A stretch of 45,288 nucleotides of DNA from the NCBI GenBank assembly GCA_030601705.1, contig JAUWBM010000009.1, positions 1 through 45,288 on the forward strand. The letters run 5' to 3'. A program made the translations under genes and the position numbers. Each line of letters begins with the position of its first letter. Positions within the stretch are counted from its first letter, which is position 1. Positions 35,735 to 44,006 of the stretch are shown here, piece after piece. Under the pieces are notes generated by a model, which worked only from the letters and a program-made list of their open reading frames with translations, had not been told where the DNA came from and did no database searches. This DNA is from Thermoplasmatota archaeon (GTDB lineage: Archaea; Thermoplasmatota; E2; DHVEG-1).

Positions 35735-36220
35735 GAAGTATCAACAGGTATTCACGTAGCTGATGTCGAGGGTCACGTAGAAACCCCATCAAATGGAGTT
35801 GATCTGCTGACCATAAGTGTAAGAGGGAGATCGGGATCAGGAAATATCGATCTTGGTGAAACTGTTGTCGAGTTGGCAAACAATGATACGAATGTGGTAC
35901 TTAGGTACAATAGCACACAACATCAGGCAAGCCCCGCAAGCACTGGAATTTTCAACACTTCTGCATTCAGTCTAGCAGCGAATGAATTTGGCATAATTGT
36001 AATAGAGGATGCAGACGGGTCTTGTGACACAACTGCAACTCCAATAATCAACAGAGGAGATCTTGTAATGCTAACCGTTAATACAAGTATGACTTTTAGC
36101 CCTAGCTTGGCGGAAAGGACAAACGTGTGGGGTAACGTTATCCCTGAGATTGGATCTTGGGGCATAATCACCTTTAGAACGCCTGCGTCATATGTGAGAG
36201 AAGTATACAATTTATTGTAG
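35735..36220 (+). pseudogene. 5'-truncated archaellin (FlaB-type) gene
   Basis: The frame reads EVSTGIHVADVEGHVETPSN then GVDLLTISVRGRSGSGNIDL. It later has FGIIVIEDADGSC, INRGDLVMLTVNTSMTF and GNVIPEIGSWGIITFRTPAS. These features are typical of the globular part of archaellins. The N-terminal prepilin signal, the hydrophobic assembly helix and the start codon are absent (about 60 residues). A TAA lies just before the fragment, at the junction with the HTH remnant. The ORF track's 115-aa version is the tail only. No other archaellum gene is in the window. Confidence 0.65.
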
Positions 36221-36559: not shown

Positions 36560-37408
36560 TTATTTATAGCAATATCGACGAAACTGAATTACTGTAATAA
36601 CCGCTGCTGACCCCATTGCTATAGCAGCCCATGGAATTGCATACATCACTTTTTCATATACTGCATAAATTCCAGAGAACATTAACATCATTAGGTAGAG
36701 AATAACAGCCAAAAGTGTGTAGCCTGATCGTTTATCTCCACCTATATAAATTTGACTTTTCTTTACTATAAACAGGTAAATACTGTATGATATAAAGACT
36801 ACTGCAGACATTTCTATCCATACTGCATAGTTCCATATTGGAATACCATAATAAATTCCACCGCCAGGCCAACTCCATACACCCATTGCAACTAGCACAG
36901 GGTCATTAATTAAATCCCAAGAGATCATGATCAATCCTGCTACAATACCCATACCAATCATTTTTAAAAACCATTGCAGAGAGGCTTTTTCATCAGACTT
37001 ATGGTTTGTCTTGATTCTATCAAAGATGATATTTGTCATAGTGAAAGCACAATAAAGAGCAATAGACCAGGCAAGTGGTATGATATAAGGGATTTTACCA
37101 AGGAACTTTGGTCCCAACAGATCACTATAGTAACACCTACACCCAAACCATTCACCCCACCCAAATGCCTCAGTATACTCATAGAGTAGCGTAATGGTAT
37201 AAGCAATTAAAAAAAAGACCAGTATCTCTCTAAACCCTAACGTCTTCCACCCATGAATGACAACAATAATTAAAAAGAGCAGGGCCCCTACCATCATAAA
37301 TATCGTTTCTGAGAGTGGAATATTTAGAACTTTACCGAGAACAAAATAAACTCCCATTACAACAAGTAAAATCGTCATAATTCTGTTTGAATCCAACTTT
37401 TTCATCAT
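36560..37408 (-). CDS. CruF-like carotenoid hydratase family membrane protein
   Basis: This 282-residue membrane protein with about eight helices resembles the CruF/DUF422 carotenoid biosynthesis family. The features are YYSDLLGPKFLGKIPYIIPLAW, WDLINDPVLVAMGVWSWPGGG and YYGIPIWNYAVW. In haloarchaea CruF hydrates the ends of C50 carotenoids. The chosen start is ATG 37408 (MMKKLDSN), since the ORF track start is an upstream TTG. It is divergent from the next gene, sharing a bidirectional promoter. Confidence 0.75.
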   Translation of the reverse strand: MMKKLDSNRIMTILLVVMGVYFVLGKVLNIPLSETIFMMVGALLFLIIVVIHGWKTLGFREILVFFLIAYTITLLYEYTEAFGWGEWFGCRCYYSDLLGPKFLGKIPYIIPLAWSIALYCAFTMTNIIFDRIKTNHKSDEKASLQWFLKMIGMGIVAGLIMISWDLINDPVLVAMGVWSWPGGGIYYGIPIWNYAVWIEMSAVVFISYSIYLFIVKKSQIYIGGDKRSGYTLLAVILYLMMLMFSGIYAVYEKVMYAIPWAAIAMGSAAVITVIQFRRYCYK

Positions 37409-37462
37409 ATCGCCATTATAGTTTACACAGCTGCCCAATTTTCTTGTAAAACGTATAAGGAG

Positions 37463-37474
37463 ATATTTATATAA
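37463..37474 (+). promoter_or_regulatory. bidirectional TATA promoter of the biosynthetic cluster
   Basis: GATATTTATATA reads as a TATA box on both strands. It sits 29-40 nt before the plus-strand ATG at 37503, which would give a near-leaderless mRNA. It is 55-66 bp from the minus-strand ATG at 37408. A second TATA-like GTATATATTT lies even closer to 37503. Confidence 0.4.
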
Positions 37475-37502
37475 CAGCTTTACGTATATATTTAAACATA
37501 CT

Positions 37503-38204
37503 ATGAAAAAAATAGTTTCTATCTTGACAATATCATCAATAACAGGTATTGGATGTATTCTCCTTGGTTTTTATTACCCCGAAAATAATGTTCTTAATGG
37601 ACTCACAGTTGTAGGACTCTGCATACTTTTAGGAGTAGCAGTAAAAATGATGGATCAATTGGTAGATGAAATAAAAGTCAAATCATATAAAATATGGATT
37701 GTGCCACTAGCTATCTTTATACCAACTTCTATGGCATATCTGGCATTAACAGAAGAACCAGTAATTGGTATGGTAACTGGAACAGCGATTGGATTATTGA
37801 TAGCAGGTAAACTAGATCATCCTATGTACTTAGTAAGTGTGATTTTGTTTGTAATCTTGATTTTTATAACCTTTGCACTAAATGTAATAAACATAGAACC
37901 AACTACATTCTGCATTATTCCAGTAGCCGCAATAGGATCCTTTCTCGATGAATTTGGGCATGACAAATTGGAAAGTAACAAAAAAGTTATTATATTCATG
38001 TTTAAACACCGATTTTTTTTGAAAGCTTTTGCATTTCTTGGTTTTATACTAGGTTTTGCTCATCTCATTCATCTAATAGGATTTCTTTGTTTTGATATTT
38101 TTTATGATCTTGTAGATACCGCATGGCAATATGATATAATCAGCGAAAAATTCATGCCACATGTTTCCCAAGGTAGGTTAAATGAACGAGTTGACGATGT
38201 TTAA
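37503..38204 (+). CDS. polytopic membrane protein of unknown family
   Basis: This 233-residue protein has about seven hydrophobic helices. It carries two acidic motifs, MMDQLVDEIKVK after the second helix and FLDEFGHDKLE after the fifth. These are placed somewhat like the Asp-rich motifs of prenyltransferases, but they do not match UbiA. No family is recognised. The downstream radical SAM gene starts 23 bp inside this one, which suggests translational coupling and functional connection. Confidence 0.65.
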   Translation: MKKIVSILTISSITGIGCILLGFYYPENNVLNGLTVVGLCILLGVAVKMMDQLVDEIKVKSYKIWIVPLAIFIPTSMAYLALTEEPVIGMVTGTAIGLLIAGKLDHPMYLVSVILFVILIFITFALNVINIEPTTFCIIPVAAIGSFLDEFGHDKLESNKKVIIFMFKHRFFLKAFAFLGFILGFAHLIHLIGFLCFDIFYDLVDTAWQYDIISEKFMPHVSQGRLNERVDDV

Positions 38205-39495
38205 TCCACTTGTTAAAACATTGGCCAAATGGTATTCCAAAAAATGTTCTAAATGTGGCACCACTCGTATAGAAACCATACTTAATAGTTTTAGAGAGAA
38301 AACAGAATGTCCAGACTGCAAAAAACAGATTCTTTTTGGTAAAATCCCACTCAAAATACTAATGACTTATATGAGAATAACTAGCAGCGATTTAAATGAT
38401 TTATCTTCTGATAAAGAGGCTATTTCATTAGTTAATGCGCTTTTTCGTGGGATAACTAAACATGGACTTAAAGCGGTTAGAATTGGAATACCAATCTATG
38501 TTGTATTTGATATTACAGACAAATGTAACTTAAAATGTATTCATTGCTATTCCTCGGAACAAAACGAGGAATTAACAACAAATGACGTTTATCATATACT
38601 AAACATGCTTTACGAGGCAGGAGTTGGGATAATCGATTTTGGAGGTGGAGAACCATTATTGCGAAAGGACATATTAGACATAATCTCCTATTCTAAAAAT
38701 CTAGGATTGTATACATCTATTTCAACCAATGGCACACTTCTCAATGATGGCTATGTAAAACATCTGAAAGCAATTCATATAGATCATGTTTGCATAAGTC
38801 TAGATGGCGTTAATCCAGAAACACATGATTACATTCGTAATAAAAAGGGAACATATGAAAAAACGATTAAAGGAATCGAAAACTGTGTAAACGCCGGTAT
38901 TAATACACAGATCTCCACTGTTTTTATGAATAGTAATTTCGATGAATTAGTAGATATCTACAATCTATTAGACTTGCTTAATGTCAATGGATGGTATATT
39001 TATGATTTTATTCCTGCTGGGCGAGGAAAGGAATTGCAAAAAGAGATACTTGATCCAAAACAACGAGGTGAACTCTTTGCGCGTTTACAAGATCTCGCAG
39101 TTTCAAGCAAAATGTCACTTAAACCATATCCTTATTCAATAACGGTCAATTCTGCATGTGGAACAGATACATATTTTTATAAAAAATACGGGAAGTTAAC
39201 AGAGCTTTTTAAGGGTTGTCTATCAGCACGATGGGTATGTCATATTTCAAGTAATGGAGATCTACATCCTTGCCATCTTTTACCGCATAAACTTGGAAAC
39301 CTAAAACAAGAAGCTTTTGAAGATATTTGGTTCAATAAAGATAATCCTGTTTTAAAAGAACTACGAGATAGGACGCTGCTGAAAGGAAACTGTGGAATAT
39401 GTAAATATCGAGATGTTTGTGGTGGTTGCCGTGCGCAAGCATTTTGGAATACAGGTGAGTATCTTGAAAGTGATAGGTGCTGGATTAAAACTTAA
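38182..39495 (+). CDS. radical SAM/SPASM-domain enzyme
   Basis: This 437-residue enzyme has the radical SAM motif CNLKCIHC (C115, C119, C122). FGGGEPLLRKD is the SAM-binding GGEP motif, with STNGTLL and ISLDGVNPETHD. The N-terminus carries two CxxC pairs (C22/C25 and C43/C46, a zinc ribbon or cluster site). The C-terminus has CHISSNGDLHPCHLLPHKLGN then CGICKYRDVCGGC, a SPASM domain for extra Fe-S clusters. SPASM enzymes modify peptides or small molecules. The substrate is unknown. The start overlaps the membrane protein gene by 23 bp. Confidence 0.88.
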   Translation: MNELTMFNPLVKTLAKWYSKKCSKCGTTRIETILNSFREKTECPDCKKQILFGKIPLKILMTYMRITSSDLNDLSSDKEAISLVNALFRGITKHGLKAVRIGIPIYVVFDITDKCNLKCIHCYSSEQNEELTTNDVYHILNMLYEAGVGIIDFGGGEPLLRKDILDIISYSKNLGLYTSISTNGTLLNDGYVKHLKAIHIDHVCISLDGVNPETHDYIRNKKGTYEKTIKGIENCVNAGINTQISTVFMNSNFDELVDIYNLLDLLNVNGWYIYDFIPAGRGKELQKEILDPKQRGELFARLQDLAVSSKMSLKPYPYSITVNSACGTDTYFYKKYGKLTELFKGCLSARWVCHISSNGDLHPCHLLPHKLGNLKQEAFEDIWFNKDNPVLKELRDRTLLKGNCGICKYRDVCGGCRAQAFWNTGEYLESDRCWIKT

Positions 39496-40577
39496 ATTCC
39501 TGTAACTAAAAACTGTTTAGATTGAAGTTTTTTTAATAACCAAATGGGATCTATTATTTCACCAAATGTAAAAAGACCTGTCTTTTTTAGATTATTTTCC
39601 AGTAAAAAGTTAACTCCACAAGCAATAGCAGTAGCTGTCGCAACAAATGTATCCGGATGCTGCAGGTTTACTACCATTTTTTCTGATACTGCATTATTTG
39701 ATTTTTTACCAGCAGCATCCATTCTAATTGCAAGACCACGGGGTGCAAGATACTGATTTATCTGGCTAGCATATTTGAGATATCTTGCCAGCAATTCTGT
39801 TAACCGATAATTAGCAGTGTTGATGGAATGCACTAAAACCACTATATCTGATAAAAAACCAGGTGTTCCTAGCTTAAGAGTAAAATTTTGGATATTTGTT
39901 GGAAAATGAAGTTGTGTGTCTGCTGGAGGTGAAGCAAAAACATGTTGATTATTAAATGGCGGAGCAAAACATACGACGTCTCTCATTGAACCCAGTTTTT
40001 GTATGATCCATTGGCCGTTTTCAAAAACTTCAACAGGTTTTCTGGATTCCAAGAGCATATCAACTGCTGATCCCATTGAAAGAGGGTCGTTGAATATCAC
40101 TGAAACTTTAACATTATCCACCTTAACAAACCTACGAGATGCAAGTTCCAGCAAAACACGAGAAAGCCCAGGAAAGACTCCTGCTCCAGTAACCATCAAA
40201 ATGCCTTTCCCTTTTGCATTTTGATTGATTTCTTGAATGTTCTTATCACATTCATTTAAAATTGACATACCAGATTCCACATATGGAATAGTCTCCTCAA
40301 TAGCTGCCTCTGCAGGTAGCGTTTTGAATGTATGTGTTGGGCCTGAACAGTTAACGACCATATCAATTTTTGAATAAAACTTTTTCAAACTCTTTTTGCT
40401 TCCAGCATCTACCGAACAAATATCTATTATTTTGTCAAATTTGTTATAAATTTCTCGAAGCTTCTTCTCTTTTCGGCCAGCAATTACCACATTATTTTTT
40501 GTATTTCCAAGTAGTTCTTTAGTAAGTTTTTTCCCGACAGCTCCAGATGCACCGAGAATCCCTATCGTCTTTGCCAT
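39492..40577 (-). CDS. saccharopine dehydrogenase-like NAD(P)-binding oxidoreductase
   Basis: This 361-residue protein begins with a Rossmann motif IGILGASGAVGKKL (G9-x-x-G12-x-x-G15). NNVVIAGRKEKKL and MVVNCSGPTHTF follow, as in the saccharopine dehydrogenase-like superfamily. It is not a lysine-pathway enzyme by length or C-terminus. Relatives act on diverse substrates, including lipids and polyketides. It is convergent with the radical SAM gene (4-bp overlap) and divergent from the flavoprotein gene. Confidence 0.78.
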   Translation of the reverse strand: MAKTIGILGASGAVGKKLTKELLGNTKNNVVIAGRKEKKLREIYNKFDKIIDICSVDAGSKKSLKKFYSKIDMVVNCSGPTHTFKTLPAEAAIEETIPYVESGMSILNECDKNIQEINQNAKGKGILMVTGAGVFPGLSRVLLELASRRFVKVDNVKVSVIFNDPLSMGSAVDMLLESRKPVEVFENGQWIIQKLGSMRDVVCFAPPFNNQHVFASPPADTQLHFPTNIQNFTLKLGTPGFLSDIVVLVHSINTANYRLTELLARYLKYASQINQYLAPRGLAIRMDAAGKKSNNAVSEKMVVNLQHPDTFVATATAIACGVNFLLENNLKKTGLFTFGEIIDPIWLLKKLQSKQFLVTGI

Positions 40578-40647
40578 TCAACGTCATCTCTATAATCAAT
40601 TCAATGTTTACATTAGTACATATATTTTTAGATTTATCGCTATAACA

Positions 40648-40656
40648 AAATATATC
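40648..40656 (+). promoter_or_regulatory. TATA box for the flavoprotein gene
   Basis: AAATATATC lies 26-34 nt before the ATG at 40682, the usual archaeal distance for a leaderless message. Confidence 0.4.
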
Positions 40657-40681
40657 AACGTCACGCCCCTTAATCTTACTG

Positions 40682-41758
40682 ATGACAACAAAAGATATCC
40701 AGATTTATGGCGCAGGTTTGTCAGGTCTAGTTTCTGCTATAAATCTAGCTAGAGGTGGACATACTGTTACAGTATATGAAAAAGAAAAGAAAATTGGAGG
40801 AACGTTAAAATGTCATCCTTCGGTCCATATGACGCCTGTGCATATTCAAAATATGCAGAGGTATGTTGGAATAGAATTAGAATCATGTTTTTCAAAATTA
40901 GAGGCCTTTAGAGGTTATATTGGTCCAAAAAAAATTGTATTTTCCACAAAAAATCTCTATATTGTTGAGCGGGGACCAAGAGAATCATCATTAGATTATT
41001 TTCTCTACAAAACAGCTTTAGAAGAAGAGGTTAACTTCGAATTTTCACATCCTTTAACCCCAGAAAAATTGAGAAGTATTCCTGGAAATTCAATTATTGC
41101 AACAGCGGGATATTCACAGATCGTCAGAGATCTCCATCTGCCATATGTTACCTTTAAACAATTCGACACACATATGAAGACTGATATTAGAAATATTACT
41201 ATAGTTTACTTTGGAGATTATACATCCGACTATGGATATATTTCAGCGAAAAATGGGATGCTCTCAGCTCAATTATCGGGTCCATCAAATCTTTCTCAAG
41301 AAAATTTAAAGAAATTTACAAATTTAGTGAAAGAAACGGAAGGTATCGAACTAGATAGTTGGTCTTCTATTATTACTCATTTTCCCAAAAAAGCACGATT
41401 GTTTACTAAATTTGATGGAAAAACCTATGTGCTAGCTGGAGATGTGGCTGGCTTTTTAGATCCATTTTTTGGTTTTGGTATTAACGGTGCACTTATGTCT
41501 GGAAAAATTGCTGCAATGGGCATAACATCAAAACAGGACGCATTACAAGAATTTAAACAGTTTACATCACATCTAAATAAAGATCTTTTACTACACACAA
41601 TTTATTGGCATCTTCCCTTAAAAAAGTTAATTCTTTCACAAATAATGAAATTCCATGATAATCATCTATCTTTGATCAAACGAAGTATACCTGGCTTTAC
41701 CGAGGAGGATTGGCTAAAAATTGTTTCAACTGAGAACCTAGTTTTTTATTGTATATAA
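40682..41758 (+). CDS. FAD-dependent oxidoreductase, geranylgeranyl reductase-like
   Basis: This 358-residue flavoprotein has an N-terminal dinucleotide-binding motif IYGAGLSGLVSAINLARGG with E33 for the adenosine ribose. The second FAD motif is VLAGDVAGFLDPFFGFGINGALMSGKIA near residue 258-285. That is typical of the geranylgeranyl reductase and related flavoproteins acting on isoprenoid or quinone substrates. It could reduce or desaturate a polyprenyl chain. The C-terminus is helical and basic, suggesting membrane contact. Confidence 0.8.
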   Translation: MTTKDIQIYGAGLSGLVSAINLARGGHTVTVYEKEKKIGGTLKCHPSVHMTPVHIQNMQRYVGIELESCFSKLEAFRGYIGPKKIVFSTKNLYIVERGPRESSLDYFLYKTALEEEVNFEFSHPLTPEKLRSIPGNSIIATAGYSQIVRDLHLPYVTFKQFDTHMKTDIRNITIVYFGDYTSDYGYISAKNGMLSAQLSGPSNLSQENLKKFTNLVKETEGIELDSWSSIITHFPKKARLFTKFDGKTYVLAGDVAGFLDPFFGFGINGALMSGKIAAMGITSKQDALQEFKQFTSHLNKDLLLHTIYWHLPLKKLILSQIMKFHDNHLSLIKRSIPGFTEEDWLKIVSTENLVFYCI

Positions 41759-42797: not shown

Positions 42798-44006
42798 TTA
42801 TATCTTTTTTAGCTGTTTAGTTTGCAGTTTGTCCCATTTAGTGACCAACGTTTTCAACATTTGCATCTTGGATTCAAGATTGCCGAGCATCATGTTGAAA
42901 TCTCCCACCTCTGCTTTTGTTGTCTCCATCTCGGTTTTTAGACGATGGATCTCCTCGTTTCTCTCCCGATAATCCCCCATCTCTGATTTCATCTTGTTTA
43001 ATTCTCTCCTTAAGACATGTATTTCTTCCTCTTTTTCTCCTATCAGTATTTTAAGATCTGTGGTATCTGCTGGTACGTCAAATATTGAAATGGTATGGAC
43101 AGCTTTTTCGTATAGCTCTGCGAGTTGTTGCGGTGAGTACCGCCGGTATGCTTGGGTGAGATATCCCTCGTGTCCCATTAAGGCCTCAACAACGTCTACA
43201 GGGATCTCCAAGCTCATGCGTGTTCTAAAATACTTCCTAAGTGTGTGTATGTGCATTTTATGACGATTTGTCCGTTCCTCCCTTTCGGTATACCCTGCTT
43301 TACGTATCAACCGGTTCCATGCAATAAGAGCGGTTGCATATGTGAAAGGGAAAATATAGGAGCTATCTGCTGTTTTTGTATAGTGTTTAAAGTTGGCTCT
43401 TTTTACTGATACATTTAGATATTCGTCTCTAACCTTTAGCCATTCCTCCAAGTTGGTTTTTGCTTCTTCACTCATAAATGCTATTCGTGGATTGCCTGTT
43501 TTGGTGGTTTCGCCACGTATGCTGATTTTAACCGGTTTACTGTTCATATCTATGTCTGATTCTTTTAGGTGTAGTATCTCATCTATCCTCAATCCACTGC
43601 TACTAGCTATGAGAAACAAAGTGCGTTCTTTTACTCCCCCATGAGTAAGTATTTTCTTTAGCTGTATGTTTGTTGGAACCAAATCCTGTGTTACGGGCCT
43701 GTTTCCCTTTGCCCGCTTTCTAAAGTTCGTCCATACCTTTGGTTTAATATCTACATCGTTTTCTGTGAGGAAGGTTCTTATACAGGATATTCTCATATTT
43801 CGTGTACAGGGTGGTTCGTCAATAATTGCTTTCCAGAAAGTTTTTACATCCTGCTCATAGTCACGCCCATTGTTAAAGTACTGATCTGGATCTGCTTCTA
43901 TGATACTGAAAAATTTGTTTAGATGTGTCCTGTAGGCTTTGCGTGTTGATTTACTACTAGGGTAATTCTCTAGGAACTCTTCTATCTTATTCATCACAAT
44001 CATCAT
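42798..44006 (-). CDS. tyrosine recombinase (integrase) with C-terminal coiled coil
   Basis: This 402-residue integrase has the catalytic set: R140 in SSSGLRIDEIL, H254-x-x-R257 in HIHTLRKYFRTRM, H279 in LMGHEGYLTQAY and the nucleophile Tyr at 287 (or 290). The N-terminal ~100 residues form the core-binding domain. Residues about 310-395 form a long coiled coil (EIHVLRRELNKMKSEMGDYRE), not needed for catalysis. The gene lies beside a palindromic TATA (GTTTATAAAC, 44026-44035), giving a leaderless start at 44006. It likely belongs to an integrated virus or plasmid. Confidence 0.88.
   Translation of the reverse strand: MMIVMNKIEEFLENYPSSKSTRKAYRTHLNKFFSIIEADPDQYFNNGRDYEQDVKTFWKAIIDEPPCTRNMRISCIRTFLTENDVDIKPKVWTNFRKRAKGNRPVTQDLVPTNIQLKKILTHGGVKERTLFLIASSSGLRIDEILHLKESDIDMNSKPVKISIRGETTKTGNPRIAFMSEEAKTNLEEWLKVRDEYLNVSVKRANFKHYTKTADSSYIFPFTYATALIAWNRLIRKAGYTEREERTNRHKMHIHTLRKYFRTRMSLEIPVDVVEALMGHEGYLTQAYRRYSPQQLAELYEKAVHTISIFDVPADTTDLKILIGEKEEEIHVLRRELNKMKSEMGDYRERNEEIHRLKTEMETTKAEVGDFNMMLGNLESKMQMLKTLVTKWDKLQTKQLKKI

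Follow-up and report, generated by a model that had tools for sequence, protein, structure and literature searches.

What might a carotenoid hydratase (CruF)-like membrane protein do beside a radical S-adenosylmethionine (SAM)/SPASM enzyme in an anaerobic archaeon? This question is raised by a five-gene cluster at positions 36560-41758 of the stretch of DNA analysed here (the window, 45,288 nucleotides), which is one contig of a 2.84-Mb, 90% complete metagenome-assembled genome (MAG) of the Thermoplasmatota type (G000, hereafter the own genome). The cluster comprises B (36560-37438, minus strand), the CruF-like membrane protein of 292 residues; C (37503-38204, plus strand), a polytopic membrane protein of 233 residues with about eight helices; D (38182-39495, plus strand), the radical SAM/SPASM enzyme of 437 residues; E (39492-40577, minus strand, convergent with D), a saccharopine dehydrogenase-like NAD(P) oxidoreductase of 361 residues; and F (40682-41758, plus strand), a geranylgeranyl reductase (GGR)-like flavoprotein of 358 residues. 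All five open reading frames (ORFs) were confirmed at these coordinates, and the B-C-D-E-F arrangement described by a first-pass annotation is thus borne out. We found that the cluster is conserved and that its genes keep company with isoprenoid genes, and we propose, on balance, that it serves anaerobic Thermoplasmatota as a cassette for tailoring isoprenoid membrane lipids.

The cluster is conserved within its family

The family sample consisted of 45 genomes, namely nine carriers of the cluster, all of them related archaea from sediment (the own genome included), and 36 non-carriers. All genomes compared are MAGs, which makes absences soft, and the one scan of genome contigs was capped at 80 loci. 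C and D are adjacent in all nine carriers, with C standing directly before D in each (58-91% and 64-94% identity, respectively). F was found in eight of the nine carriers, the contig of the ninth ending before F would be reached, versus only two of the 36 non-carriers (Fisher p = 2e-6), and it is 71-86% identical across the seven other carriers. Because C and D are adjacent in nine genomes and F is nearly restricted to the carriers, the association of these genes is not a matter of chance. B is present in eight carriers (58-82% identical across the seven others) and missing in G007, and E lies beside the cluster in six (G000, G035, G007, G037, G042 and G044; 60-88% identical in the five other than G000). 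The genes thus do co-occur in other genomes, with C and D mostly accompanied by F, B and E, so that one of the two refuting conditions named by the first-pass annotation does not hold. The copy of D in G039 (L029 5513-6686) is split over two frames by a frameshift or an assembly error.

Two extra radical SAM/SPASM genes, designated rSAM2 and rSAM3, lie between C and B in G035, G037 and G044; the window either lost them or never had them. The rule that rSAM2 always accompanies C failed: of 390 genomes, 15 have rSAM2-type proteins, and only five of these 15 have them near C. Where the surroundings were read in the other ten, no C was found. Two rSAM2-type SPASM proteins (L031 4914-6368 and L032 11401-12870; three copies in L031) have C-termini resembling GGCMGSLKDEE and GGCFGSLSKDD.

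B and C homologues accompany isoprenoid and ether-lipid genes

Across the phylum and in separate lineages, B and C, neither of which has yet been placed in a lipid pathway, are found next to core genes of isoprenoid and ether-lipid synthesis. Three distant genomes (G084, G095 and G103) have a C homologue divergent from a homologue of geranylgeranyl diphosphate (GGPP) synthase (58-59% identical to the G095 copy), with an rSAM2-type enzyme nearby in G084 and G095. Among the mcrA-positive genomes of the phylum, we observed a conserved order of aldehyde dehydrogenase, C family, GGR-like and GGR genes (L250, L251, L254 and L255 in G220, G131, G241 and G146, respectively), next to genes for ribosomal protein S6e and an aIF2-gamma-like protein; to judge from phylum and mcrA, these genomes are presumably Methanomassiliicoccales. 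A radical SAM gene was not recognised at these methanogen loci. The CruF relative in the order-level neighbour G047 follows a geranylgeranylglyceryl phosphate (GGGP) synthase gene (PcrB), with UbiX-like and polyprenyl-phosphate-translocase-like genes nearby, and in G023 a gene for a polyprenyl synthetase is 3 kb away from B. Relatives of F outside the cluster adjoin UbiE/CMAS-like methyltransferases. The own genome encodes the tetraether synthase Tes (7tol, E 7e-124) and, on contig C55, a second C-like gene that adjoins genes for an F-like protein and for a GGR (L267 7362-11127). Such second-type C-like loci (L267; L036, L037 and L038) adjoin GGR-family genes and also a radical SAM protein of the TIGR03975 type, a C-methyltransferase model for ribosomally synthesized and post-translationally modified peptides (RiPPs), to which the L037 copy scores 364 bits against a cut-off of 282.

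Together with the conservation in nine genomes, these neighbourhoods uphold the original view of a conserved cluster of isoprenoid-acting enzymes. That the substrate is some isoprenoid is, in our judgement, very probable. Since the neighbourhoods of C and B homologues hold GGPP synthase, GGR and GGGP synthase genes, a membrane ether lipid appears, by a modest balance of probability, to be the isoprenoid concerned.

Enzyme families of B, E and F

B matches PF04240 in Pfam (E 9e-26; 91.5 bits, cut-off 25). Its CruF match thus survives a profile search, and the other refuting condition of the first-pass annotation does not hold either. It shares this Pfam family and the class of membrane protein with CruF, the bisanhydrobacterioruberin hydratase (PF04240, TIGR03460), although most carriers are without phytoene synthase. 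E matches Sacchrp_dh_NADP (PF03435, E 3e-12, 47.6 bits against a cut-off of 25.1; Pfam) and shares the NAD(P)-binding Rossmann domain with saccharopine dehydrogenase-like oxidoreductases; it differs from them in that no relative by sequence was found in the PDB and its C-terminal half has no assigned domain. F matches only generic FAD domains in Pfam and the GGR superfamily model TIGR02032 in NCBIfam (E 6e-12), and like the geranylgeranyl reductases (TIGR02032; arCOG00570 paralogues, PMC10821996) it is FAD-binding. The families that had been named from motifs (CruF-like, SPASM, saccharopine dehydrogenase-like and GGR-like) therefore agree with the profiles, if only weakly for F.

C represents a new membrane-protein family

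For C, we found no matches in Pfam or NCBIfam and no informative ones in PHROGs. Its AlphaFold2 (AF2) model has a predicted local distance difference test (pLDDT) score of 87.3, and a Foldseek search with this model gave no PDB fold match with E < 0.3, the best being a rhodopsin at E 0.33. UbiA, CarS or another known fold was considered for C and rejected, as two AF2 models and two PDB fold searches gave no match and a Pfam match is absent. With a confident model and no PDB fold match, C is, as modelled, a new family. Eight residues (K48, D51, K103, D149, E150, R170, F197 and Y201) are invariant in an alignment of 36 homologues (A7). The invariance of charged residues in a hydrophobic protein suggests that C is probably enzyme-like rather than a passive anchor.

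D groups with putative Gms-like radical SAM enzymes

D carries both a Radical_SAM (E 2e-29) and a SPASM (E 8e-7) domain according to Pfam. Its radical SAM (RS) motif CX3CX2C (C115/C119/C122) is invariant in the alignment, an N-terminal CxxC...CxxC element is formed by C22, C25, C43 and C46, and the SPASM cysteines for two auxiliary clusters are C346, C353, C364, C404, C407, C413, C416 and C433. Among relatives of D from named sources, the closest are those of Thermoplasmatales RS_17_39, a MAG from Lake Pavin sediment and UBA33, which we take to belong to the MBG-D/DHVEG-1 lineage.

In a tree of 44 sequences, D was grouped, with a support of 91/95, with proteins that have long N-terminal domains, namely group X (Bathyarchaeota and Hadesarchaea), group Y (Thermoproteus and Desulfurococcales) and a Gms-like group; the branches of X and D are long, which makes the exact join uncertain. 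The tree separates D from heme enzymes of the NirJ2/AhbD type. Gms (glycerol monoalkyl glycerol tetraether (GMGT) synthase, also Hbs) is a radical SAM/SPASM enzyme that cross-links the chains of glycerol dialkyl glycerol tetraethers (GDGTs) (PMC11186832). D shares with it the radical SAM and SPASM domains, a length above 420 residues, an N-terminal domain before the RS motif and anaerobic archaeal hosts, and it lies on the same tree branch as the Gms-like proteins of its family. The sequence criterion for Gms is a BLAST match to an authenticated Gms with E<1e-50, >30% identity and >420 residues, followed by a sequence similarity network score of 90; the label Gms-like for the Thermoplasmatota group is instead drawn from three cysteine positions, RS+248, +250 and +316, which are occupied in most members and are equivalent to C370, C372 and C438 of Gms relative to C123 (PMC11186832). 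Over its full length, D is 40% identical (E 1e-79) to a Gms-like protein of the family whose own Gms identity has that same basis. Those Gms-like genes of the family that were read are, unlike D, without B, C, E and F as neighbours. True Gms-like genes occur in none of the nine carriers versus 12 of the 36 other genomes (p = 0.086), and we therefore do not claim mutual exclusion between them and the D cluster. The Gms-like/group Y SPASM genes of Thermoproteota (L054, L059 and L075) each have as neighbour another radical SAM gene, which by its sequence resembles the B12-binding type.

Gene starts, the B/C intergenic region and surroundings

The 23-bp overlap between C and D that had been noted holds if the first ATG of D is used. 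However, Met6 of D (38197) is invariant and the residues upstream of it are not, so D probably starts at Met6, which would shorten the overlap to 8 bp. The conserved start of B is probably the ATG near 37405. Between the divergent B and C genes lies an AT-rich element, ATATTTATATAA (37463-37474), whose core, ATATTTAT, is identical in all five aligned genomes. It is a candidate TATA element at the site of the proposed bidirectional promoter, and a role for it as a shared or back-to-back TATA element of the two genes is plausible.

Shortly downstream of the cluster, a tyrosine-type integrase (PF00589, 64 bits) is encoded at 42798-44006 (minus strand) among small ORFs and may mark an integrated element. 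A short, possibly truncated ORF at 35873-36220 (plus strand) has an archaellin-like C-terminal match (PF01917, 29.9 bits), just over the cut-off.

A possible pathway and its alternatives

From family relationships and gene neighbourhoods we infer a substrate, an order of steps and a catalytic role for each protein as follows. In a (bi)phytanyl chain, D would abstract hydrogen at an unactivated carbon, leading to a C-C bond or another carbon-centred modification. B would hydrate or otherwise handle an isoprene double bond, and F and E would yield a saturated chain by reducing double bonds or a carbonyl formed on the way. C would be a membrane component of the system that either binds or presents the lipid or itself catalyses a prenyl step.

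Several points weigh against such a membrane-lipid cassette. Three carriers have no E beside the cluster and one (G007) has no B, and therefore neither is essential. B scores under the CruF equivalog cut-off (65.7 versus 154.7 bits, TIGR03460, NCBIfam), and F, far under the GGR cut-off (45.9 versus 158.8 bits, TIGR02032), has no match in Pfam to the GGR catalytic domain (GGR_cat, PF22578) at E<=1. D is without the CxC ligands of auxiliary cluster I (AuxI) of Gms (RS+247/+249; C370 and C372 in M. okinawensis), in place of which it has one cysteine and another seven residues on (+231 and +238), and its insert is shorter. Because these ligands are absent, we do not file D as Gms; that it works like Gms, by radical chemistry on lipid chains, is moderately probable, in a comparison made with Gms-like proteins that were themselves assigned by cysteine position. 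Neighbourhood evidence is guilt by association and proves no pathway. Moreover, for uncultured sedimentary Thermoplasmatales the membrane lipids have, according to PMC11868695, "never been assessed".

The first-pass annotation had allowed for an unusual lipid, a carotenoid or a quinone as substrate and for a pigment pathway as the context. Of this we retain the enzymes of isoprenoid type and a substrate that is not an ordinary carotenoid, but not the carotenoid and pigment part. In a carotenoid pathway, B would be a hydratase and F a reductase, which would suit PF04240 as a carotenoid hydratase family. The haloarchaeal bacterioruberin cluster consists of lycopene elongase, CrtD and CruF, and it has in common with the present one a CruF beside isoprenoid enzymes; the present cluster, however, is without crtB, crtI, crtD and UbiA and has the radical SAM enzyme and C instead. 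We searched the 45 genomes of the family for phytoene/squalene synthase (PF00494) and read the crtB neighbourhoods. PF00494 is absent from the own genome and five other carriers, and the three carriers with crtB amount to no enrichment (p = 1), contrary to the co-occurrence with phytoene synthase that a pigment pathway would suggest. G012 has crtB at a distance of about 0.6 kb from its CruF-like gene B; the block of genes around it is, however, also found in G030 and G036, neither of which has the cluster. The family, which is related to anaerobes, has carotenoid-heliorhodopsin clusters of its own (L171 2572-14483 and similar) with crtB, crtI, lycopene cyclase, fatty acid hydroxylase, UbiA and heliorhodopsin, and no close CruF relatives were found in them. 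We rejected a carotenoid pathway as the primary explanation on account of the missing PF00494 in six of nine carriers and the separate crtB clusters without CruF, and consider it improbable. Another isoprenoid, such as a respiratory quinone side chain, a polyprenol or dolichol, or a free polyterpene, could be modified by the same kinds of enzymes. Quinones and polyprenols have been suggested as substrates of GGR paralogues (PMC10821996), the methanogen C operon holds two GGR-family genes, and the G047 CruF relative has the UbiX-like and translocase-like genes nearby; yet neither UbiA nor a methyltransferase is in the cluster, and the nearest characterised relative of D acts on ether-lipid chains. 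Such a substrate is conceivable but rather unlikely.

SPASM enzymes often modify peptides, and a RiPP maturation system would account for the TIGR03975 radical SAM gene at the second-type C-like loci, where ORFs of 81-86 residues lie alongside in G001 and G003 (L036 and L038), as well as for the GGC(M/F)GS-like tails of the two rSAM2-type proteins. However, CruF, saccharopine dehydrogenase and GGR-like enzymes are not RiPP enzymes, and the methanogen C homologues sit with GGRs where a radical SAM gene was not recognised. Among ORFs of at least 80 residues, the sizes examined, no extra and no precursor-like one was seen within 36560-41758, where the intergenic gaps are about 64-104 bp. We regard peptide maturation as very unlikely. 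The top NCBIfam score of D, to the heme b synthase model TIGR04545, might point to a heme or siroheme pathway with D as an AhbD/NirJ enzyme, but D reaches 260 bits with this model and 248 bits with the NirJ2 model, each against a cut-off of 500. The tree sets D apart from AhbD and NirJ2, tetrapyrrole genes do not surround the cluster, and the own genome has a separate NirJ2-like gene (L182 1169-2170, contig C156) at 491.4 bits, just under the cut-off. With scores at about half of the cut-off and the separation in the tree, a heme/NirJ identity of D was rejected, and tetrapyrrole synthesis is extremely improbable.

Implications

Archaeal tetraether lipids are widely used environmental markers. 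It is possible, although we hold this only tentatively, that the membrane-lipid cassette makes an undescribed archaeal core lipid, in which D, with rSAM2 and rSAM3 where present, would give biphytanyl chains a new functional group or C-C bond and B would add a tertiary hydroxyl, and in which C would be the first of a new-fold family of membrane enzymes for isoprenoid lipid synthesis across Thermoplasmatota, including methanogens. With its phylum-wide links to GGR and GGPP synthase genes and no structural relative, the C family is a concrete orphan-enzyme target. If the proposal is true, the cluster would supply candidate genes for an undescribed lipid.

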